A stretch of 64,000 nucleotides of DNA from Rhodobacteraceae bacterium EL129. Its GTDB lineage: Bacteria; Pseudomonadota; Alphaproteobacteria; Rhodobacterales; Rhodobacteraceae. The stretch is taken from the NCBI GenBank assembly GCA_900313005.1, contig ONZJ01000002.1:541001-605000 (forward strand), in the 5' to 3' direction. The position numbers and the translations under genes were made by a program. Of this stretch, positions 28,635 to 43,464 are shown piece after piece; within the stretch, counting starts at the first letter, position 1, and every line of letters begins with the position of its first letter. The notes beneath the pieces are model-generated. The model worked only from the letters and a program-made list of their open reading frames with translations, searched no databases and was not told where the DNA came from.

Positions 28635-28769
28635 GGGAATGGCCTGTAACGCTAGCAAATATCCGCGGCGTGTCCGAGTTGCTTAGCCCTTGATTCCATA
28701 TCAAACCCGCTCTATACGCGCACGTGTCGACAAAGGCGGAGACCTTTGCAGGACAAAGAGTGTTGAGCA

Positions 28770-28800: not shown

Positions 28801-28884
28801 GAACCGTCTGACCAATGAAACCCTAAGACCGGCGGAGACAACCGCGCGGCCAGAATAAACGCTAGATTAGGAAAAAAACGCCAC

Positions 28885-30564
28885 ATGGCTAACACAATGG
28901 AAGAGTTTGAAGCACTCCTGAACGAAAGCTTCGAAATGGACACGCCCGAAGAGGGATCAGTTGTCAAAGGCAAGGTTCTCGCGATTGAAGCGGGACAAGC
29001 CATCATCGACGTCGGCTACAAAATGGAAGGCCGCGTTGATATCAAAGAATTCGCAAATCCCGGTGAAGCCCCCGAAATCGCCATTGGCGATGAGGTAGAG
29101 GTCTATTTGCGCGCGGCGGAAAACGCCCGCGGCGAGGCTGTGATCAGCCGCGAGATGGCCCGCCGCGAGGAAGCCTGGGATCGTCTGGAAAAAGCCTATG
29201 CCGACGAAGAGCGTGTCGAAGGCGCGATCTTTGGCCGGGTTAAAGGTGGCTTTACCGTGGATCTGGGTGGCGCCGTTGCGTTCTTGCCCGGCTCTCAGGT
29301 CGATGTGCGCCCCGTGCGCGATGCGGGCCCTCTGATGGGTCTCAAGCAGCCGTTCCAGGTTCTGAAAATGGACCGTCGTCGTGGCAACATCGTTGTTTCG
29401 CGTCGTGCGATCCTTGAAGAATCACGTGCCGAGCAGCGCGCCGAGGTTATCGGCAACCTGACTGAAGGCCAGGCGGTTGACGGTGTGGTCAAGAACATCA
29501 CCGAATACGGTGCGTTTGTTGATCTGGGCGGTGTTGACGGGCTGCTGCACGTCACCGACATGGCATGGCGCCGGGTTAACCACCCATCTGAGATCCTGAC
29601 CATTGGCGAAACCGTTAAAGTTCAGGTCATCAAGATCAACAAAGAAACCCACCGCATTTCGCTGGGCATGAAACAGCTGCAGGACGATCCTTGGGATCTG
29701 GTGGCTGGCAAGTACCCGCTGGAAAGCACACACACGGGCCGCGTGACCAACATCACCGACTATGGTGCCTTTGTTGAGCTGGAGCCAGGTGTTGAAGGTC
29801 TGGTGCACGTCTCGGAAATGTCCTGGACCAAGAAGAACGTTCACCCCGGCAAGATCGTGTCGACCTCGCAGGAAGTCGAAGTCATGGTTCTGGAAATCGA
29901 CGGTGCCAAGCGCCGCGTCTCCCTTGGTCTGAAACAGACCATGCGCAACCCATGGGAAGTGTTCGCAGAGCAGTACCCAGAAGGCACCGAGGTCGAAGGC
30001 GAAGTCAAGAACATCACCGAGTTCGGTCTGTTCGTGGGCCTCGACGGCGAAATCGACGGCATGGTTCACCTGTCCGACATCTCGTGGGACGAGCGTGGCG
30101 AAGACGCGATCCAGGGCTACAAGAAGGGCGATATGGTTTCGGCCGTTGTCTCGGAAGTGGACGTGGAAAAAGAGCGTATCTCGCTGTCGATCAAAGCCCT
30201 GGGCGGTGACAAGTTCGCCGAAGCCGTGGGCGGCGTGAAGCGCGGTTCGATCATCACTGTTGAGATCACTTCGATCGAAGATGGTGGCATCGAAGTGGAA
30301 TATGAAGGCATGAAATCCTTCATCCGCCGCTCGGATCTGTCGCGTGATCGTGCAGAGCAGCGCCCTGAGCGTTTCTCGGTCGGTGACAAGCTGGATGTGC
30401 GCGTGACCAACGTGGACAGCAAAACACGCCGCTTGGGTCTGTCGATCAAAGCCCGCGAGATTGCCGAAGAAAAAGAAGCGGTGGAGCAGTATGGCTCCTC
30501 GGATTCAGGGGCGTCCTTGGGCGACATCCTGGGTGCGGCGCTGAAAGGCGACGAAGACAAGTAA
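28885..30564 (+). CDS. rpsA: 30S ribosomal protein S1
   Basis: A 559-residue protein with six S1 RNA-binding domains in tandem, seen as repeated G-x-V-x-x-I-T-x-Y/F-G-A/L-F-V cores (for example VKNITEYGAFVDLGG, VTNITDYGAFVELE, VKNITEFGLFVGLDG). S1 recruits mRNA to the small subunit. The leader contains two hairpins with GACAA-type loops. A terminator follows, then ihfB, the order usual in proteobacteria. Confidence 0.98.
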   Translation: MANTMEEFEALLNESFEMDTPEEGSVVKGKVLAIEAGQAIIDVGYKMEGRVDIKEFANPGEAPEIAIGDEVEVYLRAAENARGEAVISREMARREEAWDRLEKAYADEERVEGAIFGRVKGGFTVDLGGAVAFLPGSQVDVRPVRDAGPLMGLKQPFQVLKMDRRRGNIVVSRRAILEESRAEQRAEVIGNLTEGQAVDGVVKNITEYGAFVDLGGVDGLLHVTDMAWRRVNHPSEILTIGETVKVQVIKINKETHRISLGMKQLQDDPWDLVAGKYPLESTHTGRVTNITDYGAFVELEPGVEGLVHVSEMSWTKKNVHPGKIVSTSQEVEVMVLEIDGAKRRVSLGLKQTMRNPWEVFAEQYPEGTEVEGEVKNITEFGLFVGLDGEIDGMVHLSDISWDERGEDAIQGYKKGDMVSAVVSEVDVEKERISLSIKALGGDKFAEAVGGVKRGSIITVEITSIEDGGIEVEYEGMKSFIRRSDLSRDRAEQRPERFSVGDKLDVRVTNVDSKTRRLGLSIKAREIAEEKEAVEQYGSSDSGASLGDILGAALKGDEDK

Positions 30565-30591
30565 TCCCAGCCATGTGCTGTGAGACCGGAC

Positions 30592-30624
30592 AGGCCCTGC
30601 GTGTATGCGCGGGGCCTTTTCTTT
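30592..30624 (+). terminator. Rho-independent terminator after rpsA
   Basis: Ten-bp stem AGGCCCTGCG / CGCGGGGCCT (one U-G pair), six-base loop, then TTTTCTTT. It begins 28 bases after the stop. Confidence 0.9.
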
Positions 30625-30914
30625 GAGAGCATATACCTGGGTGTGGGACTCAAATCCGGACCAGGATGCCAAGTGCTGCGCAAGTTTTTCTCAAGCGAAT
30701 CAACTCCTGATATCAGTCACCTGAATTCCGCCGATCCGCGAAATTGTGGTGGATTTGCTCGGAACTCATGTTAGTTTCAGCGGGTTCTGGCAAGAAATTC
30801 ATGGAAATCATGGTGTTCTTGGCCGGCAAACTGTTTTTGTTTTTTGTGTTTCTATCTATAGTCACTGGAAAAGCGCGGCTGCCAAAGTCCAAAGCGCGGG
30901 GGAGAAAACAAAAA
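30625..30914. other. ihfB upstream region
   Basis: About 290 bases between the rpsA terminator and ihfB. An open frame continues upstream of ihfB to 30744, but the added residues do not match IHF and are hydrophobic, so I treat it as non-coding leader. The ihfB promoter should lie here; no operator recognised. Confidence 0.45.
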
Positions 30915-31196
30915 ATGATCCGATCCGAATTGATCCAGAAAGTTGCCGACGATAATCCACATCTGTCGTACCGGGACGTTGAGCGGATCGTGAATACCAT
31001 CTTTAATGAAATCACCGAAGCGATGGCCAAGGGAAATCGTGTGGAACTGCGCGGGTTTGGCGCCTTTTCCGTCAAGAAGCGCGATGCGCGCACGGGCCGT
31101 AATCCACGCACCGGTGAAAGTGTGCATGTCGAGGAAAAACACGTACCGTTTTTCAAAACCGGCAAGCTGTTGCGTGATCGACTGAACGGAAAGTAA
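30915..31196 (+). CDS. ihfB: Integration host factor subunit beta
   Basis: A 93-residue DNA-bending protein. [20 protein letters not shown] begins the helical dimer domain; the beta-arm signature [21 protein letters not shown] with the minor-groove proline is complete, and the tail is [17 protein letters not shown] chose the ATG at 30915 because the longer frame adds an unlikely N-terminus. It heads the ihfB-lapA-trpF run. Confidence 0.95.
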
Positions 31197-31199
31197 TCC

Positions 31200-31550
31200 A
31201 TGCGTTACATTCGCTATGCTTCGATTGCCATCTTCGCGGTGGCTTTGATCCTTGTCTCGCTGGCCAATCGCCAAATGGTGTCGGTCAAAGTGTGGCCGGA
31301 CGAGGTATCGGGCATGGTGGCAACCAATCCGGGCATTGAAATGCCACTCTTCGTGGTGATCTTTGCGGGCATTCTGGCAGGGCTTGTCGTGGGCTTTGTC
31401 TGGGAATGGATCCGGGAAGCAGGCGAGCGCGCCGAGGCCGCCCGGCAGGCCCGCGAGATGGAGCGCCTGCGCGCCGAGGTAAAGCGTCTGAAAGGCGAGA
31501 GAGCCGACGGCCAGGACGAAGTTCTGGCGCTTTTGGAGCAAGCCAGCTAA
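31200..31550 (+). CDS. LapA domain-containing membrane protein (DUF1049)
   Basis: A 116-residue inner-membrane protein with two helices (about residues 5-22 and 48-70) and a C-terminal cytosolic coiled coil ([20 protein letters not shown]). That is the layout of the LapA/YciS family, which in E. coli works with LapB in lipopolysaccharide assembly control. It begins three bases after ihfB; trpF follows ten bases later. Confidence 0.88.
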
Positions 31551-31560
31551 ACCGCGCTGC

Positions 31561-32208
31561 ATGACCAGCGATATTCGTATCAAAATCTGCGGTCTCAGCA
31601 CGCCTGAGACCATCGACGTCGCCGCTCAGGCGGGGGCGGCTTACATTGGTCTGGTGTTCTTTCCGAAATCACCGCGTTTTGTCAGCCATGATCTGGCGCG
31701 GGAACTGGCGCTTGGCACGCCATTGGGTGTGGCCAAGGTGGCATTGGTGGTGAATGCCGATAATGCCTATCTGGATCAGCTGACCGCCGATGTGCCATTG
31801 GATATGTTGCAGCTGCACGGCGCAGAGCCACCAGACCGGGTGCGCGAAATCAAAGACCGCTATGGCCTGCCAGTGATGAAGGCCGTGGGCATTGCGGACG
31901 CGGATGACTTACCTCAGCTTGCCCGCTACGAGGCTGTGGCGGATCAATTGCTGGTGGACACCAAGCCTCCCAAGGATGCAGACCGCCCCGGTGGCAATGC
32001 GCAGACCTTTGACTGGGATTTGATCGCGGGACGCGACTGGGCACGACCCTGGATGCTGGCCGGAGGACTAACGCCCGAAAACGTGGCCGCAGCCATTGCG
32101 CACACCGGAACGCGGCAGATTGATCTGTCCTCTGGCGTGGAAAGCGCACCGGGCGTGAAAGACCCTGCTTTGATCCGGTCTTTTATCGCCGCGGCGCAAG
32201 GCAATTGA
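31561..32208 (+). CDS. trpF: Phosphoribosylanthranilate isomerase
   Basis: Third dedicated step of tryptophan synthesis. The 215-residue TIM barrel has the catalytic Cys in [22 protein letters not shown], the [15 protein letters not shown] strand, LLVDTKPPK with the general acid Asp, and the phosphate site [14 protein letters not shown] ending in [12 protein letters not shown]. It lies directly after lapA; trpB follows only after two unrelated genes. Confidence 0.97.
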
Positions 32209-32253
32209 CCTGAACGCGGTGCTGTCCCACTCTGTCACGCAGGGGGGCTGCAT

Positions 32254-32877
32254 ATGGATACCGAAGATCTGGATGACGTCTATGGTGCCAAAACGCCGGA
32301 CGAGGCACGTGCGATCTATGCCAAATGGTCGTCAAGTTATGACGCCGACAACCTGAGCCGTGGCTTTCGCCTGCCTGCTTTGGGCGCTGGGCTGTTGGCA
32401 CGGTTTCTGGACGGGGCGGATGGGCCGTTGCTGGATGCGGGCTGTGGCACGGGGCTGGCGGGCGAAACGCTTAGTCTTTTGGGATATTCCGATATCACCG
32501 GGTGCGATTTGTCGCCTGAAATGATTGAGCGCGCTGCACGCACAGGCGTTTACCAAAGCTTTGAACACGCCGATATGGGCGCGTCATTGCCCTTTGCGGA
32601 TGGGCAGTTTGCCGGATTTGTCTGCGTCGGCTCGTTTGGCCCCGGGCATGCGCCGCCCTCGACGCTGACCCATCTGGCCCGGGTGATGCGGCCCGGGGGC
32701 ATCGGGGTCTTTAACCTGCTGGAAGGCACATATGTGGACCAAGGCTTCCCTCCGGTGATAGATGATCTGGTCGGGGCAGGGACGTGGGAGGTGATTTACA
32801 CCACGCCACCGTTCCTGCCGTTTCTTCTGGCTGAACCGGACCTTTGGTCGCGCGCCTATGTGGTGCGCAAGCTGTAA
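32254..32877 (+). CDS. Class I SAM-dependent methyltransferase
   Basis: A 207-residue protein. AIYAKWSSSYDADN and the SAM-binding LLDAGCGTGLAGETLSLLG, GCDLSPEMIERA and MRPGGIGVFNLLE mark a Methyltransf_11/25-type enzyme; the N-terminus resembles Williams-Beuren-region-like methyltransferases. The substrate cannot be inferred. GGGGGG lies eight bases upstream of the ATG. It separates trpF from trpB together with the next gene. Confidence 0.85.
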   Translation: MDTEDLDDVYGAKTPDEARAIYAKWSSSYDADNLSRGFRLPALGAGLLARFLDGADGPLLDAGCGTGLAGETLSLLGYSDITGCDLSPEMIERAARTGVYQSFEHADMGASLPFADGQFAGFVCVGSFGPGHAPPSTLTHLARVMRPGGIGVFNLLEGTYVDQGFPPVIDDLVGAGTWEVIYTTPPFLPFLLAEPDLWSRAYVVRKL

Positions 32878-32948
32878 GGAAAGAGCCGGGTTTTTGGCAC
32901 TTTATTGTTATGGCGCCACCTGGGCGCTGATTTTTGAAGGAGGGATAG

Positions 32949-33689
32949 ATGTATAGATTGATTATAGCGGCCGTGCTTGCGGTGTTGCTCGCAGCCCCGG
33001 TCGCGCGGGCTGATGGGTTCAGGCCCACGGACAACTGCCTGCAAACGCTGAATGATATGTCAGATGTCGATCGGGTGATGCTGGGCGCTTGGGTGATTGG
33101 ATATCTCGACAACACCAATGGCGAGGTCAGCCTGGTGCGATTTGATAACGCCATGACCGTGCTGAAGAACCTGACAGGCGTATGTGCCAAGAACCCAAAT
33201 GCCACGATCCTGCAGGTGGTGCAAAGCAGCAAGAAAAACACACCGGACACACCGGGAACAAAGGCCCATGCCCAGAAGTTCCTAAGCCAGTTTCTGGCTC
33301 CCGGTGCCGACCGCGTCGCGCTGACCGCATCGCTGCGCCCGTCCGAGGCTGAAATCCGCGCCGTCTATCAGCCACCTTTGGCAGATGCGTTGGTGACGAT
33401 GTACAATGATATGTTCCAGCCCGGTGTTCAGATTGGTCCCAAAGACGGTCAGACGGAGCTGCTGGTCTGGCACGGCACCACGGGCTCCTTTCGCGAAGGT
33501 GATCCGGTTTTGGAAGATTTTCCGGGTGGATACGCCGATGTGCGCGAGATGATGTTGGGCGATTACCCGATTGTGCGGTTCAAATTCGTCAAACCCGGCG
33601 AGACTTTGGGCATGGCCTTTGACGGGCTGATCCACATCAACAACCGCTGGGTGCTGATGCCCAAGCCGTGGCGGGCATTGGGCGGTTAA
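32949..33689 (+). CDS. Exported protein of unknown function
   Basis: A 246-residue protein with a clean Sec signal peptide (MYRLIIAAVLAVLLAAPVAR, then ADG). The mature N-terminus has two Cys (about residues 31 and 79) framing a helical HdeA-like stretch (MLGAWVIGYLDNTNG). The C-terminal half is a different domain with strands (IVRFKFVKPGETLGMAFDGL). AAGGAGG precedes the ATG. I do not recognise a characterised family; periplasmic location is inferred. Confidence 0.7.
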   Translation: MYRLIIAAVLAVLLAAPVARADGFRPTDNCLQTLNDMSDVDRVMLGAWVIGYLDNTNGEVSLVRFDNAMTVLKNLTGVCAKNPNATILQVVQSSKKNTPDTPGTKAHAQKFLSQFLAPGADRVALTASLRPSEAEIRAVYQPPLADALVTMYNDMFQPGVQIGPKDGQTELLVWHGTTGSFREGDPVLEDFPGGYADVREMMLGDYPIVRFKFVKPGETLGMAFDGLIHINNRWVLMPKPWRALGG

Positions 33690-33776
33690 TGTCGCCGCTT
33701 TTCGCTGGAAAATTCTGGTTTCGTCCCATATTCAACCACAGAGCCTATGATGGGCTGCTGAATGAGGTGACGCGCT

Positions 33777-35006
33777 ATGAATGATCTCTTTAACTCCTTT
33801 ATGACCGGCCCCGACGAAAAGGGCCGTTTTGGCAATTTTGGCGGGCGGTTTGTGTCCGAGACCCTGATGCCGCTGATCCTTGAGTTGGAAGAGCAGTATG
33901 AGTTTGCCAAGACGGATGAAAGCTTCTGGGCCGAAATGCATGACCTGTGGACGCATTATGTGGGCCGTCCTTCGCCTTTGTATTTCGCCGAAGGGCTGAC
34001 CGAGCATCTGGGCGGGGCCAAGATTTACCTCAAGCGGGACGAATTGAACCACACGGGGGCCCACAAGATCAATAACGTGTTGGGTCAGATCCTGCTGGCG
34101 CGGCGCATGGGCAAGACCCGGATCATCGCCGAGACAGGCGCCGGGCAGCACGGGGTGGCCACGGCCACGGTCTGTGCCAAGTTCGGGTTGAAATGTATCG
34201 TCTACATGGGCGCGCATGATGTCGAGCGACAGAAGCCGAACGTGTTCCGGATGCGCCTTCTGGGGGCCGAAGTTGTGCCGGTGACCTCGGGTCGTGGCAC
34301 GTTGAAAGACGCAATGAACGACGCGCTGCGCGATTGGGTCACCAATGTGCGCGATACGTTTTACTGCATCGGCACCGTGGCGGGTCCACACCCCTATCCG
34401 GCGATGGTACGCGATTTTCAGGCGATCATCGGCAAGGAAGCCAAGGAACAGATGATGGCCGCTGAGGGCCGTTTGCCCGATACGCTGATTGCCGCCATTG
34501 GTGGTGGATCCAACGCCATGGGCCTGTTCTTTCCGTTTCTGGATGACAAGGATGTTGCCATCATCGGGGTTGAAGCCGGCGGCAAGGGTGTGAACGCCAA
34601 GATGGAGCATTGTGCGTCGTTGACAGGTGGCCGTCCCGGCGTGCTTCACGGCAACCGGACCTATTTGTTACAGGATGATGACGGGCAGATTTTGGAAGGC
34701 TATTCGATTTCTGCGGGTCTCGATTATCCCGGTATCGGCCCTGAGCATTCCTGGCTGCATGACACGGGCCGGGCGCAATATGTCTCGATCACCGACAAGG
34801 AGGCGCTGGAGGCGTTCCAGCTGTCTTGTGAGAAAGAAGGGATCATCCCCGCATTGGAGCCCTGCCACGCCTTGGCCCATGTGATGAAGATCGCACCGGA
34901 GCTGCCTGCCGATCATATCATCTGCATGAATATGTGTGGGCGCGGGGACAAGGATATCTTTACCGTCGCCAAGCATCTGGGCTTTGAGATGGATGATGCG
35001 GAGTAA
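33777..35006 (+). CDS. trpB: Tryptophan synthase beta chain
   Basis: PLP enzyme joining indole and serine into tryptophan, in complex with TrpA (encoded at 47.9-48.7 kb on the other strand). The 409 residues contain the Schiff-base lysine in [27 protein letters not shown], the phosphate loop IGGGSNAMG and C-terminal [11 protein letters not shown] dispersed 162-bp repeat begins 24 bases after the stop. Confidence 0.98.
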
Positions 35007-35030
35007 CTTACGTCTCACCTGATCGCCAAT

Positions 35031-35192
35031 AGCCGGTTAACAGGCCCGCAGGGCCCCGGCCATCGTCAGCCCCTCCCTTGGGCTGGCGATATCTCAGATG
35101 CAGGAGCTTCCTTTGTTCTTGTGGATGTACGATGCTGGCATAAAGTACTCCCTAACTAACCCCAGGTCGCCTGCCCAGGGGCTAACGATGGC
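35031..35192 (-). repeat. 162-bp dispersed element, copy 2 (inverted relative to copy 1)
   Basis: Read on the minus strand this copy matches 22306-22467. The exact 38-base block is at 35055-35092 and the exact 13-base block at 35031-35043. The far end (35160-35192) is a shortened, opposite-strand version of the 38-base block, giving imperfect terminal inverted repeats. A 15-codon frame inside (35094-35141, minus; MPASYIHKNKGSSCI) has GGGAG before its ATG and shares codons 5-8 (YIHK) and the start with the frame in copy 1. Confidence 0.8.
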
Positions 35193-35499
35193 GGGGGCGT
35201 CATCAATTTGAAGGTGTAAAAGAGCCGCTGAATTATTGTTGCGTGGTTTCTTAAGAAGTTTGCTGAGCGCAGTTCTCGAAATCAGCTCTCCTTTCCATTT
35301 ATTACCCAACCTCGCAATATTGTTGCGCAAAGATCACGAGCGTTTTGAGGGGTTATCTTGCCGTGTAGATCGAATCTGATTGTTAGCGGTATCACCTGTT
35401 TCCCGGTCACACGGATCGGACCCTAGCGGTTGAAGCTCTGATGCTTCTCCGGTGCGGGCGGCGCTGCCGACCCCGTATGCCAGGGCCGAAATGTGCGGG
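35193..35499. other. Non-coding stretch before the tRNA-like cluster
   Basis: About 300 bases, AT-richer at 35200-35390, with no credible protein gene. It probably holds the promoter of the tRNA-like cluster. The best sigma-54-like match (near 35483-35496, GG and GC ten apart) is poor and too close to the first tRNA-like 5' end, so I do not call it. Confidence 0.4.
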
Positions 35500-35572
35500 A
35501 TGCTAGTAGCTCAATAGGTAGAGCAACAGATTTAGGTTCTGTGTGTTGAGGGTTCGAATCCCTCCAGCAAAC
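35500..35572 (+). tRNA. tRNA-like RNA with Leu(UAG) anticodon arm, degenerate
   Basis: D stem GCTC/GAGC, anticodon arm ACAGA-TTTAGGT-TCTGT (anticodon TAG), T arm GAGGG-TTCGAAT-CCCTC. The anticodon loop is that of tRNA-Leu(UAG), but the variable loop is only five bases, whereas real tRNA-Leu has a long arm. The acceptor pairs only as TGCT[A]G with CAGCA, with a bulged A, and no CCA is encoded. It is unlikely to be an ordinary leucine tRNA; it may be a mimic or a decayed gene. Confidence 0.6.
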
Positions 35573-35646
35573 GCAAAAGTAGCTCAGTCTGGATAGAGCG
35601 AACGACTGTTAATCGTTTTGGCGCAGGTTCGAATCCTGCCTTTGCA
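35573..35646 (+). tRNA. tRNA-like RNA with Asn(GUU) anticodon arm, degenerate
   Basis: D stem GCTC/GAGC, anticodon arm AACGA-CTGTTAA-TCGTT (anticodon GTT), T arm GCAGG-TTCGAAT-CCTGC, all perfect. The acceptor GCAAAAG pairs with CTTTGC only if one A is bulged, and the 3' end reads ACA, not CCA. It abuts the Leu-like RNA with no spacer. It might be processed into a working tRNA-Asn after CCA addition, but the shared acceptor defect argues for a special role. Confidence 0.6.
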
Positions 35647-35650
35647 CATC

Positions 35651-35686
35651 GGTCCCTGAAAAGGACCACTGGTCTTGAACACCAGT
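35651..35686 (+). ncRNA. Two adjacent anticodon-arm-like hairpins: Phe(GAA) and Ser(UGA)
   Basis: Hairpin one (35651-35667) is GGTCC-CTGAAAA-GGACC: five pairs, a seven-base loop, T at loop position 2 and triplet GAA, like a tRNA-Phe anticodon arm. Hairpin two (35668-35686) is ACTGGT-CTTGAAC-ACCAGT: six pairs, a seven-base loop, T at position 2 and triplet TGA, like tRNA-Ser(UGA). Neither has D or T arms around it. With the two cloverleaves just upstream this makes four anticodon-loop look-alikes in 190 bases. Confidence 0.5.
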
Positions 35687-36040
35687 TAAAACACCGGGAT
35701 CCGGGGCTGCCTCAGCAGAGGTTGGCCCGGCGGTCTGTCCCTTCGGGGAATGATTAATGGATCTGCCACTGCTCTGGCCTTGCGTCGGAGCATGGGATGA
35801 CGGCTTGTGCCGTGGTTCAGTCTGCGAGGCTGCCCCGTGAGGGCGGATAAGCACGCCGGGTCACTGCGCGCCCTCTCGCCCATCTCCCACGCCGGGTCAT
35901 GGCGCGGGGTGGCTTCGGGTTCCACCTCACCGCCCTTGAATAATGGGCATCACACCTGTCGGCATTCTGCCGCAACACATTGAAAACACTGAAAGGAGCT
36001 CTTGCCTTGCGACGATAGGACGAGACGAATTGGAGACGAT
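35687..36040 (+). ncRNA. GC-rich structured leader between the tRNA-like cluster and slipin
   Basis: No protein gene. Several small hairpins are visible: CCTC-AGCA-GAGG, TCCC-TTCG-GGGA, ACGGC-TTGT-GCCGT and GCCC-CGTGA-GGGC. The 12-mer CACGCCGGGTCA occurs twice (35852 and 35888, 36 apart). This may be one long RNA with the upstream tRNA-like parts, or a 5' leader of the slipin mRNA. Folding was done by eye only. Confidence 0.4.
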
Positions 36041-37192
36041 ATGATGACACATATACTGACGAAACTGACCGATTGGCTGACCGGATACACCCGCGTCACC
36101 GTTATGGAAACCGAACGACTGCTGGTGCTGGAGAAGGGCCGTATCGCCAATATCCTGAGCGCTGGGGAACACCGCATCAAGCGGCGTGATACCGTGACGG
36201 ACCTCCATGATTTGGGTCGCCTCCGTTTCACTACGCCCTACGAGGCAGCTCTGTTTCGGGAACGCCCCGATCTGGCCGAAGCGCATCTGACCGAAGTTCG
36301 CGCAGGTGACGACGAGGTTCTGATCGTCCGGCGCGACGGGCGTCTGCACGAGGTGATCCTGACAGGGGACCGCGTGGTCTACTGGACCGATGCAGGCCCC
36401 TGGACGGTGGAGCGGTATGCGCTGACGGACACGCTGACAGTACCCACCAAACTGGCCAACGCGCTGGTTCGGGCGGGGCTGACCACAGGTTTCAACGCCA
36501 CGGAAGTGGCTGAGGGACATGTGGGCTTGCTGACCGTGGACGGTGTTCTGAAAGGACGCTTGACCCCTGGCACACACGCCTTTTGGCGGCTGGGGCGGCA
36601 TGTGGCTGTGCGGCAGGTCGATCTGAGGACACGTACGCATGAGGTCACGGGTCAAGAGATCCTGACCAAGGACCGCGTGACGATCCGGGTGAACCTGACC
36701 GCCGTGTACCGTGTGGTTGATCCTGAGCGTGCCGTAGCGGCCGTGAAGGATTTCACCGAGGCGCTGCACCGGGCCCTGCAACTGGCGTTTCGCCGGACGC
36801 TGGGTGCGCTGACGCTGGATACGATCCTAGCCGAGAAAGGCGCTGTGAATGCAGAAGCCGCCGAGGCCGTACGGGCGGAAATGGCCCGTATCGGGGTCGA
36901 GGTTGGTGAGATCGCCCTGCGCGATGTCATCCTGCCCGGCGAGATGCGCGATATCCTCAACCGTGTGGTTGAGGCCGAGAAGGAAGCCGAGGCCAATGTG
37001 ATCCGACGCCGGGAAGAAACGAACGCAACGCGGGCGCTTCTGAACACGGCAAAGGTGATGGCCGACACCCCTGTGATGCTGCGTCTGAAAGAGCTGGAAG
37101 CTTTGGAGACGATCGCAGGGAAAGTGGACACTCTGACCGTGCACAACGGGACTGAGGGTCTGATGACCGAGGTCGTGCGCCTGCGCGATTGA
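36041..37192 (+). CDS. Slipin family (SPFH/Band 7) protein
   Basis: A 383-residue protein. The SPFH domain covers about residues 150-300 (AEGHVGLLTVDGVLKGRLTPG; ILTKDRVTIRVNLTAVYRV; GVEVGEIALRDVILPGEMRD), followed by an EAEKEAEANVIRRREET coiled coil, the usual slipin order. The first 140 residues are not the usual membrane hairpin but a soluble, charged extension. GGAGA lies four bases before the ATG, with a second ATG right after. The RNA cluster immediately upstream suggests the two act together. A strong terminator follows. Confidence 0.9.
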   Translation: MMTHILTKLTDWLTGYTRVTVMETERLLVLEKGRIANILSAGEHRIKRRDTVTDLHDLGRLRFTTPYEAALFRERPDLAEAHLTEVRAGDDEVLIVRRDGRLHEVILTGDRVVYWTDAGPWTVERYALTDTLTVPTKLANALVRAGLTTGFNATEVAEGHVGLLTVDGVLKGRLTPGTHAFWRLGRHVAVRQVDLRTRTHEVTGQEILTKDRVTIRVNLTAVYRVVDPERAVAAVKDFTEALHRALQLAFRRTLGALTLDTILAEKGAVNAEAAEAVRAEMARIGVEVGEIALRDVILPGEMRDILNRVVEAEKEAEANVIRRREETNATRALLNTAKVMADTPVMLRLKELEALETIAGKVDTLTVHNGTEGLMTEVVRLRD

Positions 37193-37211
37193 GGTCTGGC
37201 TACGGCTGGTG

Positions 37212-37244
37212 TCCGGCCCGGGGGAACCCTCGGGCCGGATTTTT
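37212..37244 (+). terminator. Rho-independent terminator after slipin
   Basis: Perfect nine-bp stem TCCGGCCCG / CGGGCCGGA with a ten-base loop and five T's. It closes the tRNA-like/slipin unit. Confidence 0.92.
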
Positions 37245-38405
37245 CTATGTTTGCGGGTGCAGGATGCGCAGGATGAGCGCGGCTGAGGCCATCGCAATCC
37301 CGCAGGCCGTCATCAGCGCGATATGATAGCCGCCGCCTTGGTCGAACAATACACCCGCCAGCCACGGCCCCAACAACCCAGCCGTTCCCCAAGCGGTGAA
37401 CACTCGTCCGTATATGCGCGGCCCGCGATCCATGCCGTAGCGTTTCGCGATGGCCGCAGGGTAGACGGCGATGGTGCCGCCGTAGGCAAAGCCGATCAGG
37501 CCAAAGGCCGGTAGCATCGCCGCCGATGTGCCAAAGGTGGCAAGCCCTGCCAAGGCAAGGGCTGTCGCTGCGGCCAGGCCCCCCAGCAATCGACCCGGAG
37601 AAAGCGTATCCGCCAACTGCCCAGCGATCATCGCCCCGGCCAAATTACAGGCCGCGATCACGACAGGCGCGAGCCAGGCCGCGGTTCCCGGACGCAGTGC
37701 CGCCGCAATTCCGGCGGCGTGACCGATCACCATCAGCCCGGCCATCACACCGCCGAAATAGGCGAGCCAGAGAAGGCCAAGCTTGTGCATGCCTGGGTTG
37801 GGTTGAATCAAGTTGGTTGGTGTCGATTTAAATCGGGCCCGCGCCAGATGCATCAATCCCGCGCTGACCAGTCCGACGCCGATCAGGCATACGGCAAGGC
37901 TGTTCATCGCACGTGCAAAGCCGCCGGTCGACAGGGCGATTTCAAACAAAGCGGGTGAGACGACTGACCCCAAGGCATAGGCCGCTGTCACCACGCCCAT
38001 CGCCAGCCCTTCGCGGCCTGGATTGACCTGTGCTGAAATTTGCAGACCAAAGCCATAGCCCAAACCATTCGCGGCCCCGAAGATCAGGCTGTAGCCCAGC
38101 CAGACCCCTGTCAGCGTTCCCGCCAATCCTGCCCCATAGGCACCTATCGCTGCCAGAGCGCAGGCCGTGCCCATCAGCATTGCGGCCGAACCTTTGGTGT
38201 AAAGCCGGGGGCCTATCAGAACCACCAAAGTGATCGCCACGAGGGCCATGGAATAGCTGAGCGAAACCGCTGTGCGCGATGCGGTAAACTGTGCCTCAAG
38301 CGGGACCAGAAAGACGGAAAAGGCGTGGATCGACCCCATCACCACTGAAACCAGCGCAGCGGCGATCAAAACGATCATTCCGGAGGATGCGGGGGGCGAG
38401 GTCAT
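37245..38405 (-). CDS. MFS transporter
   Basis: A 386-residue permease with twelve hydrophobic segments. The loop after helix 2 and the GLGYGFGLQISAQV and GFAYGGTIAVYPA stretches fit the oxalate:formate antiporter-like/monocarboxylate branch of the major facilitator family. The start at 38405 leaves four bases to the upstream gene, so it is co-transcribed with the carboxymuconolactone-decarboxylase-like and DUF2237 genes. The substrate is unknown. Confidence 0.85.
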   Translation of the reverse strand: MTSPPASSGMIVLIAAALVSVVMGSIHAFSVFLVPLEAQFTASRTAVSLSYSMALVAITLVVLIGPRLYTKGSAAMLMGTACALAAIGAYGAGLAGTLTGVWLGYSLIFGAANGLGYGFGLQISAQVNPGREGLAMGVVTAAYALGSVVSPALFEIALSTGGFARAMNSLAVCLIGVGLVSAGLMHLARARFKSTPTNLIQPNPGMHKLGLLWLAYFGGVMAGLMVIGHAAGIAAALRPGTAAWLAPVVIAACNLAGAMIAGQLADTLSPGRLLGGLAAATALALAGLATFGTSAAMLPAFGLIGFAYGGTIAVYPAAIAKRYGMDRGPRIYGRVFTAWGTAGLLGPWLAGVLFDQGGGYHIALMTACGIAMASAALILRILHPQT

Positions 38406-38409
38406 TCGG

Positions 38410-38805
38410 TCAGGCCTTGAAGGCCTCATCCACCGGGACTTGCAGGGCTGTCGCCAAGGCGTTGGTTTGGCTGGCCATGCCGATGACCGACAGAAGCTCG
38501 CCTTGCTGGGCGTCGGTCATGCCCTTGGCGCGGGCCGCTGCCGTGTGGGAATGGGCGCAGTATTCGCAGGCATTGGTGACCGAGACGGCGATGTAGATCA
38601 GTTCTTTGGTCAAAGGGTCCAATTCACCCGGTCCCATGACGGCTTTCAGCCGGTCCCATGTGGCACGCAAGAGGGCCGGATCATGGGCCAGTGCACGCCA
38701 GAAGTTGTTGATGAAATCACCGCCTCGCGTGGTTCGGATGTCGTCAAACACCGCCTTTACATCGGGGCTGGCACCCTCGTCTGAGATCAGCGTGACTGTG
38801 GCCAT
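38410..38805 (-). CDS. Carboxymuconolactone decarboxylase/AhpD-like protein
   Basis: A 131-residue helical protein. The AhpD-type active stretch is clear: TNACEYCAHSHTAAARAKG, with the redox Cys pair and the His pair. Such proteins act as thiol peroxidase partners or unrelated decarboxylases. It lies between DUF2237 (12 bases upstream) and the MFS gene (four bases downstream) in one operon. Confidence 0.88.
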   Translation of the reverse strand: MATVTLISDEGASPDVKAVFDDIRTTRGGDFINNFWRALAHDPALLRATWDRLKAVMGPGELDPLTKELIYIAVSVTNACEYCAHSHTAAARAKGMTDAQQGELLSVIGMASQTNALATALQVPVDEAFKA

Positions 38806-38817
38806 GGGGTGGATTCC

Positions 38818-39192
38818 TTATGCGGTGGCGTGTTCCTTCAGCACCTTCAGCGGCACGATGTCGAGGGCGCGCAGATGTGTGGCCTCCAGTTGCACCTTGG
38901 GCGCGCAGCCTTCGTCGTGGGCCTGAAGGAAGCGGGCGGCACAGAGGCACCATTGATCGCCGGGCTTCAACCCGGCAAAGCCAAATTCGGGGCGTGGTGT
39001 GGAAAGATCGTTGCCGACGTATTTGGAATAGGCCAGAAATTCAGCGGTCATCAGGGCGCACACCGTGTGGCTGCCCTGATCCTCGGCACAGGTGTTGCAG
39101 GCGCCATCGCGGAAAAACCCGGTCATCGGGTCGGTGGAGCAGGACGTCAGATCGCCGCCTAATACGTTGAGAGATTGGTCTTTTTCGGTCAT
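38818..39192 (-). CDS. DUF2237 family protein
   Basis: A 124-residue protein rich in conserved Cys and short motifs: NVLGGDLTSCSTDPMTGFFR, then CNTCAEDQGSHTVCALMT, then PGDQWCLCAARFLQA. This is the DUF2237 pattern; the family is uncharacterised and the Cys may bind metal. First gene of the three-gene operon with the AhpD-like and MFS genes. Confidence 0.88.
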   Translation of the reverse strand: MTEKDQSLNVLGGDLTSCSTDPMTGFFRDGACNTCAEDQGSHTVCALMTAEFLAYSKYVGNDLSTPRPEFGFAGLKPGDQWCLCAARFLQAHDEGCAPKVQLEATHLRALDIVPLKVLKEHATA

Positions 39193-39225
39193 GTCTTTGC
39201 CTTTGTGTGCAGGGGCAGTATGGCC

Positions 39226-40389
39226 TCAAAGACCCTCGGCAATCAATCGGAACATGGCGACATTGCTGTCATTCACGCCCGGCTCCCGGAATTGGCGATC
39301 TGCGGCGGTGGTGACAATCACCACATCGCGGGTCTGGTCGATATAGATATATTGCCCATAAATGCCACGTGCCAGAAACTGCCCCGGCTCGGACCCCAGC
39401 GGAATCCACCATTGATAGCCATAGCTAGTTTCCGTCTCGGTGGTCTTGGCCGAAGGCCGGGTGGACGCGGCGACCCAGTCGGCTGGTACGATCTGCTGAC
39501 CGCCATATTGCCCATTCTGAGCGATCATCAGGCCAAAGCGGGCATAATCGCGAGTGGTGACGTTCAGCCCGCCCAGCACAAAGGCCACGCCAGCACCATC
39601 GGTGATGTAATAGGGGTCCTGCTCCAGCCCCAGCGGCTGGATGATTTTTTCGGACAGAAGCGTAGGGATATCCTGCCCCGTGGCCCCTCGGATCACCATC
39701 GAGATCACATGGGTGTCGATCGAGACATATTTCCAATCCGCCCCCGGCTCGGATGTGCGTTCGGTCAGCGCGGTGGTGAAGTCATCCATCAGCCGCCCCA
39801 GCGCCAGCACGCGGCCCATGCGGTTGATGTCGGAATTATAGTCGAGGTAATCCTCGTTGAAGGCCACACCGCTTTCCATTTGCAGCACGTCTTCGATGCT
39901 GGCGCCCTCATATGCGCTGCCCATAAGTTCGGGGGCGTATTTGGTGACCGGGTCGTTGATGGATGTGATGTCGCCATCCTCTAGAACGATACCAAAGAGC
40001 GCCGAAAGATAGCTTTTGGCCACGGACCAGCTGATCCGGCGGTCCTCGGCCTCGGTCCCCAGTTGATAGCTTTCATGCACAATCTGCCCGTCTTTGAGCA
40101 CTAGCAGAGAGGTGACGGCGCGGTCTATGATCCATTGTCCGGTTGTGGCGGGCAGGGTGGCGTCAGGTCCCTTGGGTAGTTCTGACAGAGAGCCATCGCC
40201 GCGCGGCACATCGCGGGTCAGAAAGGCACGGTCCATGTTTGAGAAATTGCCGACGATCTTGTCCTCGTCAAAGACTGTGTTCACGGCCATGAGGCGTTTC
40301 AACTCGTCTTTTTTCCACAGACCGACACAGAGCAAGACCAGGCCACTGATGAGCAACCCCCGGAAAACCCATTTGAAAAATCTGCGCAT
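39226..40389 (-). CDS. Membrane-anchored serine hydrolase, class C beta-lactamase family
   Basis: A 387-residue protein with one N-terminal helix (residues 8-24) that should anchor the rest in the periplasm. The serine and lysine are in SVAK (Ser122, Lys125). DYNSD and the YVSID segment are candidates for the second motif, and the late block is YGYQWWIPLG. It resembles esterases and 6-aminohexanoate-oligomer hydrolases of this fold more than true beta-lactamases. Transcribed alone; the substrate is unknown. Confidence 0.85.
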   Translation of the reverse strand: MRRFFKWVFRGLLISGLVLLCVGLWKKDELKRLMAVNTVFDEDKIVGNFSNMDRAFLTRDVPRGDGSLSELPKGPDATLPATTGQWIIDRAVTSLLVLKDGQIVHESYQLGTEAEDRRISWSVAKSYLSALFGIVLEDGDITSINDPVTKYAPELMGSAYEGASIEDVLQMESGVAFNEDYLDYNSDINRMGRVLALGRLMDDFTTALTERTSEPGADWKYVSIDTHVISMVIRGATGQDIPTLLSEKIIQPLGLEQDPYYITDGAGVAFVLGGLNVTTRDYARFGLMIAQNGQYGGQQIVPADWVAASTRPSAKTTETETSYGYQWWIPLGSEPGQFLARGIYGQYIYIDQTRDVVIVTTAADRQFREPGVNDSNVAMFRLIAEGL

Positions 40390-40462
40390 GGTGCCCCCTT
40401 TGCGATGTTGGGGTCAGACAATCATTCGCCGGGGGTGCATGCAAGCCTGACGCGGCGGCGGG

Positions 40463-41152
40463 TCAGCGGAATTTGTCCATCAGCTTCTGCATCGGCGTGC
40501 GGGTGTCTTCGGCGCGCGCGGGCGGCTCTTCCGACTTTGCAATCGGCCTCGTCGTGTCTTTCGGCGTGGATTTGGAGGAGCGCGCCGGGGTCAGGCGCAG
40601 GCCCACAGCGTTGAGGAACTTACCACTGTCGCCCTCCGCCAGATGGGGCGCACCGTCGCCGATGCCGCGCATTAGATCATCCAGCCATTCGGCATCCGCC
40701 TTGGCAAAATCCTGTAGCACGTAATGGGGCACGAGCTCCTTGCGGCCTGGGTGACCGACGCCCAGACGAACGCGCTGGTAGTCTGCACCGATATGCTGGT
40801 GCACCGACCGCAGCCCGTTGTGGCCGGCATGCCCGCCGCCTTGTTTGACGCGCAGCTTGGCCGGGGCCAGATCAATTTCGTCGTGGAACACGGTCACATC
40901 TTGGGGTGTTAGCTTGTAGAACCGCATCGCCTCGCCCACGGATTGGCCGGACAGGTTCATGAATGTTTCGGGCTTGAGCAGCATGATCTTATCCGAACCC
41001 AAACGGCCTTCGGCGATCTGCCCCTGAAACTTGGATTTCCACGGGCCAAAGCCATGGTCCCCGGCGATCTGGTTCAGAGCCATGAAGCCGATGTTGTGCC
41101 GATTATGGGCATATTTCGCGCCCGGATTGCCCAGTCCTACAAAGAGCTGCAT
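40463..41152 (-). CDS. pth: Peptidyl-tRNA hydrolase
   Basis: Cytosolic enzyme that frees tRNA from dropped-off peptidyl-tRNA. The core shows FVGLGNPGAKYAHNRHNIGF with the catalytic His, LKPETFMNLSG, FHDEIDLAP and GGHAGHNGLRS. The 229 residues include a disordered C-terminal tail (PARSSKSTPKDTTRP onward) longer than in E. coli. The start at 41152 places the family N-terminus correctly. rplY, often its neighbour, lies 3.2 kb upstream, separated by inserted genes. Confidence 0.97.
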   Translation of the reverse strand: MQLFVGLGNPGAKYAHNRHNIGFMALNQIAGDHGFGPWKSKFQGQIAEGRLGSDKIMLLKPETFMNLSGQSVGEAMRFYKLTPQDVTVFHDEIDLAPAKLRVKQGGGHAGHNGLRSVHQHIGADYQRVRLGVGHPGRKELVPHYVLQDFAKADAEWLDDLMRGIGDGAPHLAEGDSGKFLNAVGLRLTPARSSKSTPKDTTRPIAKSEEPPARAEDTRTPMQKLMDKFR

Positions 41153-41231
41153 GGTTATCGGTTCCGTTTCTTGCCTGAGCTGGTCTACGCTCAGCACGAG
41201 ACAGAATCAATCATCGAAAGTCTGCAACTCC

Positions 41232-41915
41232 ATGGCAATATTTGAGATCAATGGCGTGGCTTTGGATGTTCCGGACCATATCCTGAACGACAAGATCGCC
41301 GCCAAGATGGCCTCGGGCGGGTATGAAGCGCTGGAGGCGGCGGGGGTGCAGGCCCGAGTGCGCAAGGGCAACCGGGTGATGGAGTTTGGCGCGGGCGTAG
41401 GCTATATCGCATCGCTGGCGGCAACGATCACGGGGGGTGAAAACGTGGTCACGGTTGAGGCCAACCCCGATATGATCCCGGTGATCCGCGGCAATCTGGA
41501 CCGCAATGGATTTCAGATGGCCACCTTGATCCATGGGGCCGTGACAGGCCTTGATGACGCCGAGCCGACAATAGCGTTTGAACGCAAGAAGTCCTTTTGG
41601 TCGGCAAAGCTGGCTGGGATGGACAGCAATCCCGATGCCGTGGTGGATGTGCCGATGCTCCAATTGCATCCGCTGTTGGCCGAGCATCGCCCCCATGTGG
41701 TGATCATGGATATCGAAGGGGCCGAAGCGCACCTGTTCGAGCGCAAATGGCCGCGTCATGTGCGCAGCGTGATGATGGAGCTGCATCCCAAGCAATACCC
41801 TGACGCCGTGATCAAGAAGATTGTGGATTGTATGTCGGCCTCAGGCCTGACCTATGATCCCGGCCCGTCGCGCGGGCGTATCCTTGGGTTCCGACGGGTG
41901 CGCGACGGCGACTGA
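41232..41915 (+). CDS. FkbM family methyltransferase
   Basis: A 227-residue protein. SAM-binding VMEFGAGVGYIASLAA and VVTVEANPDMIPVIRGNLDRN are followed by VVIMDIEGAEAHLF and MMELHPK, the FkbM pattern. The chosen ATG follows 80 bases after the divergent pth start; a longer frame to 41031 would run inside pth. The acceptor is unknown. It belongs to the block inserted between pth and rplY. Confidence 0.85.
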   Translation: MAIFEINGVALDVPDHILNDKIAAKMASGGYEALEAAGVQARVRKGNRVMEFGAGVGYIASLAATITGGENVVTVEANPDMIPVIRGNLDRNGFQMATLIHGAVTGLDDAEPTIAFERKKSFWSAKLAGMDSNPDAVVDVPMLQLHPLLAEHRPHVVIMDIEGAEAHLFERKWPRHVRSVMMELHPKQYPDAVIKKIVDCMSASGLTYDPGPSRGRILGFRRVRDGD

Positions 41916-41925
41916 TCAGTCCAAA

Positions 41926-42477
41926 TCAGCTGGCGGCGATCAGGTCTTGCGTGGTCATGACGGTGGCAAATTCTCCGTGCAGATTGGCCAATGTCACCGA
42001 GTGAATTTGGTCTGCGCTGTGATCCACACCATCGGGGCCGGTGGCCGCATAAGCCCAGACCGCATCGGATACATAGACCGTGTCAAAGCCCAGGTTGCCC
42101 GCTGAGCGCGCGGTGGATTCCGCGCAATGATTGGCGGTGGCCCCGGTGATTACCACACGGGTTACGCCGGATTGTCTCAGATCCTTCTCAAGCGTGGTGC
42201 CAACAAAAGCGCTGGCCACGTTTTTGATGACGGTGGCTTCCCCTTCTTGCGGCACGGCGAAAGGTTGCGGGTCCGCGCCGGGGGCCTCGGAATGAAATGG
42301 ATCATCCGGTGTCAGCCCGTGGTGATGTACGTGCACGATCATGTCACCGCGCGACCGAAATGCGCCCAAAAGCTGTTCGATATTGCCCTCGGCATTTCGG
42401 CACGAGCGTTCTGCCCCGGCCTGATCATCCGCCACAAAGGCCATTTGCGCATCAATTACCAACAATGCTGTTTTCAT
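41926..42477 (-). CDS. Isochorismatase family cysteine hydrolase
   Basis: A 183-residue alpha/beta hydrolase of the nicotinamidase/isochorismatase fold. The catalytic triad is visible: Asp in LLVIDAQ, Lys in TVIKNVASAF and Cys in TGATANHCAEST. It starts three bases after the 2-oxoglutarate oxygenase stop, so the two form an operon. Substrates in this family include nicotinamide, isochorismate and ureido compounds; which one applies here is unknown. Confidence 0.88.
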   Translation of the reverse strand: MKTALLVIDAQMAFVADDQAGAERSCRNAEGNIEQLLGAFRSRGDMIVHVHHHGLTPDDPFHSEAPGADPQPFAVPQEGEATVIKNVASAFVGTTLEKDLRQSGVTRVVITGATANHCAESTARSAGNLGFDTVYVSDAVWAYAATGPDGVDHSADQIHSVTLANLHGEFATVMTTQDLIAAS

Positions 42478-42480
42478 CCC

Positions 42481-43344
42481 TCACCCCTCCTGATTTTCTG
42501 CGCGGGCGGCAAGAATGCGCGCCACACGTTTGCCGTAAATCCGCACATTGATATCATCGCTGATCACGCGCCCTTCTTGTTCGTCATAGGTCATGATCGC
42601 GGTGATACGCGGCCGTTTCCCTTCGACTTTGGTCACACCGTGCAGCGAATAGCCACCCCGGAACAGCGTGAAGGTACCAGCGCCACGGGAAAAGGTTTTG
42701 GCCTGCGACATATCCCCGGCCAGCAAGCGATCGACGGCCTCGCGGTCTTCTGCCTCGTCGGTGCGGGAGTTGGGAAGGAAGGTGAACTCTCCCCCGCTCT
42801 CGGCGGCCTGCAACAACAATGTCACGGTGCATTCGGTGGTGTCGTAATGCCAGGCGTGCCAGCTGTCGGGTTGTAGCGCCACAACGTTGAGCGCCTGAAA
42901 TTCGTCGGCACAGCGATAAAGCTGCTGCTTTTGCTGAACGCGCCGCACGAATTCGGTCAGCATTTGTGAATGGTACAGGCGTTTGATCAGGGTGTCGCCG
43001 GGGATCTGATCATCCGCCAGTTGCACCGCGACATGCATGAATTCGCGGCGGCGGGGGTCATCGGCGGGCAGGCTTGGATCAATCGCGCCCTGATAGATGT
43101 TGCGTTTGATGGTCAGCACTTCCGCCTGCGGCAGCAGCGTATTGCTTTCGGCGGTCAGGTCGGCCAATCGGTCGAGCCGGATGAAACCATCCAGATTGCA
43201 CCAGCCATGGGTTTGCATGCTCTGCTGACATTCCTTCAGGAAGTCTGCACCGACGCCACGGTCGAGATCATAGATTGGATAGCGCTCCATATCGACCAGA
43301 TATGTTGCGATATCGGGCTGCGCTTGGGGTTGCGTCAAAGCCAT
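42481..43344 (-). CDS. Fe(II)/2-oxoglutarate oxygenase of the HalD/BesD-ArpA family, hydroxylase-type metal site
   Basis: A 287-residue protein. The iron ligands are His166 and Asp168 in WHAWHYDTTE and His235 in GGYSLHGVTKV; GKRPRITAIMTYDE supplies the 2-oxoglutarate arginine. True halogenases of this family (BesD, HalD) have Gly in place of that Asp, so this should hydroxylate rather than halogenate. BesD-type substrates are free amino acids such as lysine. It is divergent from a LysR gene and coupled to an isochorismatase-type hydrolase. Confidence 0.85.
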   Translation of the reverse strand: MALTQPQAQPDIATYLVDMERYPIYDLDRGVGADFLKECQQSMQTHGWCNLDGFIRLDRLADLTAESNTLLPQAEVLTIKRNIYQGAIDPSLPADDPRRREFMHVAVQLADDQIPGDTLIKRLYHSQMLTEFVRRVQQKQQLYRCADEFQALNVVALQPDSWHAWHYDTTECTVTLLLQAAESGGEFTFLPNSRTDEAEDREAVDRLLAGDMSQAKTFSRGAGTFTLFRGGYSLHGVTKVEGKRPRITAIMTYDEQEGRVISDDINVRIYGKRVARILAARAENQEG

Positions 43345-43391
43345 GGGATGCCTCCTGTCGGTTCAGAGTGTCATGTTGAAGTATTCATGTG

Positions 43392-43417
43392 ACTTTGCGG
43401 GGATGTCATGGCAAAGT
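43392..43417. promoter_or_regulatory. Inverted repeat in the oxygenase/LysR divergent promoter
   Basis: ACTTTGC-N12-GCAAAGT, a perfect seven-base inverted repeat in the 120-base divergent region, of a size suited to a LysR-type dimer. CATG...CATG elements surround it. Proposed operator; not tested. Confidence 0.5.
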
Positions 43418-43464
43418 AAAATCAAAGAAAAACCTCTCATGAACATAAAAAACTTATAATACCC

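Follow-up and report, generated by a model that had tools for sequence, protein, structure and literature searches.

A predicted slipin leader RNA with conserved anticodon stem-loop look-alikes in Alphaproteobacteria and beyond

Introduction

Burroughs and Aravind (2016, NAR 44:8525) reportedly described Band-7 modules of RNA-repair operons that go together with a novel tRNA-like RNA. A comparable arrangement occurs in Rhodobacteraceae bacterium EL129, where four anticodon stem-loop look-alikes lie at positions 35500-35690 of a 64,000-nucleotide stretch (contig ONZJ01000002.1, positions 541,001 to 605,000, forward strand; hereafter the window), and this tRNA-like RNA directly precedes the gene of a slipin, an SPFH/Band-7 protein (PF01145). 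Eight related loci with RtcR and RtcB fit that description. At the window locus, by contrast, no RNA ligase or RtcR was found, these being seen in the eight related loci. What our analysis may add to that description is the multi-arm array with several elements per RNA, the bare anticodon arms, the natural yet changing loops, the free-standing form and an Arg mini open reading frame (mini-ORF). RtcR operons respond to broken tRNA, and we know of no explanation for why Rtc RNA-repair loci often carry slipin; its pairing with an RNA on which real anticodon loops are presented suggests a concrete role in tRNA damage.

Other systems share parts of this arrangement. YrlA and Rsr are a tRNA-mimic RNA and its protein partner encoded in RtcR-regulated operons (PMC8394870, PMC7790460); as described there, however, YrlA mimics the D, T and acceptor arms, whereas slipin arrays add anticodon arms. 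Hughes et al. suggest that the tRNA-like domain of YrlA may competitively inhibit an anticodon nuclease (PMC7790460). The gene of the Pseudomonas aeruginosa SPFH protein PaFlo8 is likewise embedded in an rtc locus, but the main text of that source contains no word starting with tRNA (PMC13086221). For phage tRNAs, one study makes anticodon loops the site of conflict with tRNA-cutting enzymes and proposes working tRNAs rendered nuclease-resistant by loop changes, whereas here mimics stand 5′ of a chromosomal gene (PMC10264068). In the Anabaena TrcR regulon, a tRNA array (the trn operon), rtcB and a slipin gene are under one repressor and are raised by translation stress, but array and slipin lie apart and the 26-tRNA operon resides on a megaplasmid (PMC10272220). 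No title or abstract opening describing arrays like the present ones was found in our literature collection, which misses many papers.

We tentatively propose that the array is a decoy RNA that offers anticodon loops of several specificities in a response to damaged tRNA, with slipin as its partner, a reading that we hold to be slightly short of probable.

Results

Structure of the array in the window

Its sequence pattern marks the region as the predicted structured leader RNA belonging to the slipin gene. All four stem-loops are present exactly where a first-pass annotation had put them:

35500-35572, + strand, pseudo-tRNA 1, Leu UAG look-alike (ARAGORN tRNA-Leu (tag)), with its T-arm at 35548-35564
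35526-35542, + strand, anticodon arm of pseudo-tRNA 1 (Leu UAG), ACAGA-TTTAGGT-TCTGT
35572-35647, + strand, pseudo-tRNA 2, Asn GUU look-alike (ARAGORN tRNA-Asn (gtt)), with its T-arm at 35623-35639
35601-35617, + strand, anticodon arm of pseudo-tRNA 2 (Asn GUU), AACGA-CTGTTAA-TCGTT
35651-35667, + strand, bare anticodon stem-loop, Phe GAA, GGTCC-CTGAAAA-GGACC
35668-35686, + strand, bare anticodon stem-loop, Ser UGA, ACTGGT-CTTGAAC-ACCAGT

The placement of the first two hairpins inside tRNA-like cloverleaves is borne out by ARAGORN, which calls both, and by the Rfam tRNA model (RF00005), against which pseudo-tRNA 1 scores 51.8 bits and pseudo-tRNA 2 60.1 bits with a gathering score of 29. Pseudo-tRNA 1 has the lowest score among the genome's 38 listed tRNA matches. 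Its variable arm has 5 nucleotides (nt; class I) despite the Leu anticodon, and its acceptor stem forms only three of seven in-register pairs, one of them G-U, in an alignment read by eye for this module alone; because of this variable arm and the poor acceptor stem, it is not a working tRNA-Leu. Genes for tRNA-Leu (tag), tRNA-Asn (gtt), tRNA-Phe (gaa) and tRNA-Ser (tga) exist elsewhere in the genome, and the array elements are therefore additional. In the minimum-energy fold of 35497-35695, the two bare hairpins form, as do the Asn anticodon arm and the T-arm of each pseudo-tRNA. Over 56 upstream regions, hairpins with a 7-nt loop, U33 and a purine at position 37 number 101, compared with 12.2 in 20 dinucleotide-preserving shuffles (s.d. 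3.1, maximum 17); T-loops were excluded from this count, which includes L159 (L numbers are our locus handles), later dropped as a near-duplicate. The conserved element reaches far past the 190 bases originally noted.

Conservation and covariation

A search of 60 genomes of the genus with the slipin protein (383 residues) yielded close relatives in eight, the window's own included, and ARAGORN finds tRNA-like elements at the same place in all eight loci (Leu+Asn, Leu+Ser, one of undetermined isotype (tt), Thr, Asn, Ile, Ile and Gln). By the same program, all 21 loci from named genomes (Roseovarius, Marimonas, Ruegeria, Actibacterium, Thalassobius, Marinovum, Tropicibacter and other Rhodobacteraceae/Paracoccaceae; a set partly overlapping the first) have one or two such elements 5′ of slipin. 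Wider searches identified slipin-bearing genomes in the class (6/385, E 1e-40), the family Rhodobacteraceae (20/295, E 1e-40) and the phylum (23/398, E 1e-50). Removal of the duplicates L066, L067, L068, L156, L162 and L159, and of L163 with no upstream sequence, left 68 non-redundant upstream regions; L175, L177 and L178 were judged by eye alone. A tRNA T-arm is present in 67 of the 68, D-arm and T-arm together in 65 (misses: L042, L174, L142) and an ARAGORN call in 59. The proposed tie between array and slipin holds across Alphaproteobacteria and beyond. Distant SPFH paralogues, taken for comparison, have a tRNA near 1 of 22 loci, and there on the opposite strand. Across relatives, a locus is made up of one to three tRNA-like cloverleaves, mostly followed by one or more bare anticodon stem-loops, together with conserved flanks, slipin and, in alphaproteobacterial loci, a mini-ORF.

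Within the fetched DNA, trpB lies upstream in 17 of the 21 named loci, and the window copy is also near trpB; 15 of the 21 have downstream a homologue of the window ORF 40463-41197, which we take, by its sequence, for a peptidyl-tRNA hydrolase. These conserved neighbours suggest old vertical descent of the slipin module with many losses.

For 61 cloverleaf modules (selected as having a D-arm, seven bases in the anticodon loop, 3-6 nt of variable region and no fewer than four pairs in both T-arm and anticodon arm), 91.6% of cells are paired versus 70.5% after shuffling, and the covariation score is 0.569 versus 0.167. Pairing is complete (100%) in D and T stems and amounts to 98% in anticodon stems and 76% in acceptor stems. 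The acceptor stem, which was not used for selection, has changes on both sides at all seven pairs. The predicted cloverleaf stems are thereby shown to be kept by compensatory changes.

A decayed, functionless tRNA gene cluster would explain the weak acceptor stems (76% of cells paired) and the misfit of the window's Leu-like element with its isotype. It is contradicted, however, because the stems covary, and the T-arms in 67 of 68 regions, the recurring bare arms and the position 5′ of slipin over several families also speak against it; we give it hardly any credence. Its prophage version was rejected as well, since no slipin of this type was found in the phage collection (E 1e-10) and the stems covary. 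Unconserved hairpins or a decayed prophage tRNA array had been named beforehand as grounds for giving up the annotation; the array proved conserved and the phage collection negative.

Bare arms and anticodon loops

Bare arms were sought in the 95 bases 3′ of the last T-arm in 67 regions. The pattern Y32-U33-R37 is found in 44 of 57 bare 7-nt-loop hairpins (42 loci), as compared with 0.8 in 200 shuffles (maximum 5); leaving aside two elements of L176 that lie inside its second cloverleaf, 43 of 55 bare arms in 41 of 67 regions have it. Examples are Gly UCC (Ruegeria), Asp GUC, Trp CCA, Lys UUU, Tyr GUA (L198), Cys GCA (L199) and Phe GAA (L200). Retention of U33, a check that the first-pass annotation had named, is partial in the cloverleaves: among 88 cloverleaf anticodon arms, 61 were assigned 7-nt loops, and 42 of these 61 have U33. 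Since D- and T-arms are paired while many loops lack U33, the pseudo-tRNAs hold the elbow strictly and the anticodon loop loosely. As a separate observation by eye, L192 apparently has three tandem bare arms (CTTAAAA, TTCAGGA, CTTCAAA) within about 100 bases 3′ of its second T-arm, the last of which alone satisfied the scripted rule.

The natural look ascribed to the anticodons extends to many whole loops. Among 87 unique stem-plus-loop arms chosen for Y32-U33-R37 (106 with repeats), 30 match a window-genome tRNA at every one of the seven loop bases, against 6.5 after column shuffling (maximum 17); this applies to bare arms (12/55 versus 2.4, maximum 9) and to cloverleaf arms (18/32 versus 5.3, maximum 12). 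G36 and G37 are associated in the arms (20/26 versus 5/61, Fisher 3e-10), a habit that the genome's real tRNAs share (7/9 versus 0/24). The arms present 37 different anticodons, and 70 of the 87 fall within the genome's set (33 found, supplemented with three on general grounds) versus 59.0 after shuffling (p 0.0004; p 0.002 in a second run). Anticodon-anticodon kissing with tRNAs was tested and found no support, the reverse complement being natural in 41/87 arms versus 45.9 shuffled.

Loop change is also fast. When close relatives were compared within six groups, 69 of 252 comparisons at anticodon positions showed a difference (27%; group array means 3-23%), and none of 74 shifted masks reached this rate. 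A single stem can bear unrelated loops, as in CTGCC-CTGTTAA-GGCAG and CTGCC-CTCCCAC-GGCAG (L131, L135), or even three, as in TTGGC-CTTTCAC/TTAAGGT/TTTCCAT-GCCAA (L037-L039, L065). As far as these comparisons tell, the fast change is exchange or relaxed identity, and positive selection is not proven. Lineage-specific anticodon-loop cassettes, refitted during evolution with loops of different real tRNAs and acting as multi-specific bait, and possibly as sensor, for the anticodon nucleases that each lineage encounters, either beside Rtc genes or stand-alone, are a possible but doubtful extension of the decoy proposal.

Alternatively, the RNA might be a Y-RNA-like scaffold: its D/T elbow would dock a processing enzyme or protein, much as PNPase docks on YrlA, slipin would be the carrier and the loops tolerated leftovers. 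The D- and T-arms are 100% paired and nearly invariant, albeit in 61 modules selected by these very arms; GNRA tetraloops occur among the loops; and the window RNA matches YrlA (RF02553) weakly, at 23.6 bits and thus below the gathering score of 69. Moreover, none of the 26 RtcR stretches combines slipin (present in 8) with an Rsr-like gene (present in 9). All this would suit a scaffold. Yet stem-loops devoid of an elbow recur with U33/R37 and real tRNA loops, and mere leftovers should not retain the G36-G37 rule or natural loops on non-tRNA stems. We regard the scaffold as rather unlikely. GNRA tetraloops (GCAA, GCGA, GAGA) were noticed, partly by eye, in L139 and L143 and in the third-position hairpins of L066, L078, L080 and L084.

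Link to RtcR, RtcB and Rsr

The first-pass annotation had mentioned slipin genes and pseudo-tRNAs near Rtc-type repair genes. This link exists in 8 of 26 RtcR neighbourhoods but is weak in the Rhodobacterales genomes searched, where RtcR was detected in 2 of 23 slipin-bearing genomes. RtcR scored above the cut-off in 26 of 398 phylum genomes (27 at E 0.001), and the corresponding 26 stretches, 6 to 14.5 kb wide, were fetched; G536, with RtcR below the cut-off, was left out. Eight stretches carry this slipin (35-40% identical), nine an Rsr-like gene, nine neither and none both, where Rsr-like denotes a match far below the cut-off of the NCBIfam Rsr model (78.5 versus 900 bits). An RtcB match is present in 26/26, one of only 71 residues. 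Slipin is located between RtcR and RtcB in six of the eight loci (L131, L135, L139, L142, L143, L146), and in these six a sigma-54-like TGGCAC element precedes the array. In L134 and L153 RtcB sits between RtcR and slipin/array, and the TGGCAC element was not found. T-arms lie upstream of slipin in 8/8 RtcR-linked loci, with ARAGORN calls in four. Slipin and RtcR co-occur in 9/398 genomes versus 1.5 expected (Fisher 2e-6, relatedness uncontrolled), as counted from two phylum searches with overlapping genomes, apparently one sample; in G706, one of the nine, the two genes are on different contigs.

This gene order could also mean that the array is a signal source: cut by the nucleases that also attack tRNA, it would yield 2′,3′-cyclic-phosphate fragments that enlarge the RtcR ligand pool as a feedback or, in Rhodobacterales, report damage to another regulator. 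Cyclic-phosphate tRNA fragments are discussed as RtcR ligands in two papers (PMC11090510, PMC7790460), and in six of eight RtcR loci the array stands between RtcR and slipin-RtcB behind the TGGCAC element. In L134 and L153, however, RtcB separates RtcR from the array, and no RtcR was found in 21 of the 23 Rhodobacterales-set genomes that have slipin, where a signal source therefore needs a different reader. We deem this explanation improbable.

The window's array is free-standing. The genome's RtcB lies about 1.6 Mb away beside PrfH, and the idea of an RtcR/RtcB operon with array in this genome was dropped, there being no RtcR and RtcB being distant. The RtcB-PrfH pair (TIGR03073, TIGR03072; L101, 5794-7622, on C2 near 2.185 Mb) is unlinked to the array and adjoins an ORF resembling an AAA ATPase. 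In a hand-picked genus set, RtcB was found in 4/8 slipin-bearing versus 0/12 other genomes (Fisher 0.014), an association discarded as confounded because three of the four genomes are close relatives. No Rsr was noticed among the ORFs of 28000-45000, and no Rsr family search was made in the genome. Elsewhere, in L134 (2165-3333), ARAGORN calls Ile, Gly, His and Asn over about 1.2 kb upstream of the RtcR-linked slipin, with an HNH-like ORF in between the four.

Leader flanks, mini-ORF and slipin

The remaining features of the locus are as follows:

35320-35328, + strand, TTGTTGCGC element upstream of the RNA, a possible promoter or regulator site
35432-35447, + strand, leader hairpin GAAGC-TCTGAT-GCTTC, aligned with relatives
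35449-35481, + strand, 5′ motif of the leader RNA, CCGGTGC...GGC...TGCC...CGTATGCC
35697-35730, + strand, start of the conserved 3′ leader domain (GGATCCGGGGCTGCCTCAGCAGAGG...), from an alignment of 8 loci
35992-35998, + strand, Shine-Dalgarno-like AAAGGAG of the mini-ORF
36007-36018, + strand, mini-ORF TTG CGA CGA TAG (M-R-R-stop)
36041-37192, + strand, slipin, SPFH/Band-7 protein of 383 amino acids (Pfam PF01145, E 1.8e-31)
37211-37240, + strand, intrinsic terminator 3′ of slipin, 13 pairs then a T run

A mini-ORF with a Shine-Dalgarno-like site occurs between array and slipin in 42 of 46 alphaproteobacterial loci (L035-L042, L065-L085, L157-L174) versus 4.6 after shuffling (maximum 10 of 200); L081 was scored only via another ORF at its slipin start. 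It consists of a start, one to four codons, mostly CGA, and a stop, although the search rule allowed six codons. TTG-(CGA)2-4-stop is found in 31/46 loci, and others have, for example, ATG CGT TAG or ATG CCG TGA. Because the mini-ORF persists though codon number and stop codon vary, it appears to be translated, and it may sense the state of the ribosome or of Arg-tRNA. The scan further covered nine RtcR-linked/Photobacterium loci, none of which has the mini-ORF, and did not include 13 loci added later.

A purely cis-acting leader, with pseudo-tRNAs cleaved by tRNA-processing enzymes, slipin translation adjusted by an Arg mini-ORF that responds to ribosome stalling, and no trans role for the loops, would fit both the frequency of the mini-ORF in alphaproteobacterial loci and its persistence. 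It is hard to reconcile with the nine loci that possess the array but no mini-ORF, and it has no need of natural anticodon loops; we think it improbable too, though marginally less so than the signal source.

In the 5′ motif, 19 columns are invariant among 23 sequences chosen by a GGTGCG match, the CGTATGCC part being independent of this choice. L131, L176, L174, L196 and L082 were left out of the alignment, 13 further loci were too short upstream, and 21/59 non-Rtc regions lack the strict motif. The pattern GGTGC...G[TC]AT[AG]CC is present in 43/68 regions, some misses being regions that end too early. The motif matches no Rfam family up to E 5. Changes on both sides affect 1 of 10 predicted pairs, and the motif is too conserved for its structure to be provable by covariation. 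When the 1200 bases upstream of slipin were scanned in L065-L085, the TTGTTGCGC element turned up in 12 of these 21 loci, about 690-775 bases before the gene; the remaining 247,683 bases of the loci hold 6 copies, counting both strands. The element often occurs as AATnTTGTTGCGC. The Band-7 domain of slipin spans residues 155-326, and the closest solved structures by sequence are stomatins. The terminator noted earlier for slipin was confirmed.

Weighing the decoy proposal

On the decoy reading, the RNA would be made under translation stress, and its varied anticodon loops would act as decoys for enzymes that cut tRNA anticodon loops, sparing the tRNAs. The tRNA elbow would steady the pseudo-tRNAs, the bare arms would represent the minimal substrate, and slipin, as a membrane-scaffold protein, would be the protein partner in the way that Rsr is for Y RNA. 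The mini-ORF could couple translation of slipin to ribosome or Arg-tRNA status, and loop exchange among relatives could track changing local nucleases.

Several findings weigh against this proposal. The Leu anticodon arm is absent from the minimum-energy fold of 35497-35695, whose folding energy is ordinary (z -1.09). Many pseudo-tRNA loops imitate tRNA poorly: U33 is missing from 19 of the 61 seven-nt cloverleaf loops (C in 11, G in 5, A in 3), and 27 of 88 cloverleaf loops were assigned other sizes by a mechanical best-score choice, although some 5-nt Ruegeria loops are equally readable as 7-nt; L139 and L143 have GNRA-type anticodon-arm loops. Seventeen of the 87 anticodons lie outside the genome's tRNA set. 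A mask shift of -16 gives 27.1% difference, close to the anticodon value, and fast triplet change would also fit a lack of constraint. An anticodon is repeated in 1 of 35 multi-arm loci versus 2.3 by random dealing (p 0.32); as within-array variety is at chance level, we make no claim on distinct anticodons. The module is patchy, with 20/295 Rhodobacteraceae genomes, nearly one per genus, and 8/60 in the genus. ARAGORN is silent in 9/68 regions (L094, L095, L157, L174, L200, L139, L142, L143, L153), four of which belong to the eight RtcR-linked loci. The window genome has 0 RtcR matches, and in the two Rhodobacterales-set genomes with RtcR the gene is on another contig than the array, adjoining an Rsr-like gene. 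In E. coli, where a query joining the leader to the slipin start is covered to at least 80% by 1620/5426 complete genomes, the array has shrunk, by eye, to one T-arm-like relic.

If true, bacteria would counter tRNA-cutting toxins by a new strategy, a stock of decoys renewed through loop swapping, and the tRNA under attack in a given lineage could be predicted from each of its loops.

Distant slipin loci

In E. coli (L175, 4463-6916) and Citrobacter (L177), slipin and a nucleotidyltransferase gene lie between a DUF3811 gene and lysC; the nucleotidyltransferase 3′ of the E. coli slipin has no NCBIfam match. In the Citrobacter locus, rtcR is annotated divergently from the slipin/nucleotidyltransferase pair. 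Outside Proteobacteria, a slipin homologue in a record labelled Subdoligranulum (Clostridia; L178) is preceded, at about 3590-3700 and as judged by eye, by the leader motif CGGTGCG...GCGTATGCC together with T-arm-like hairpins.

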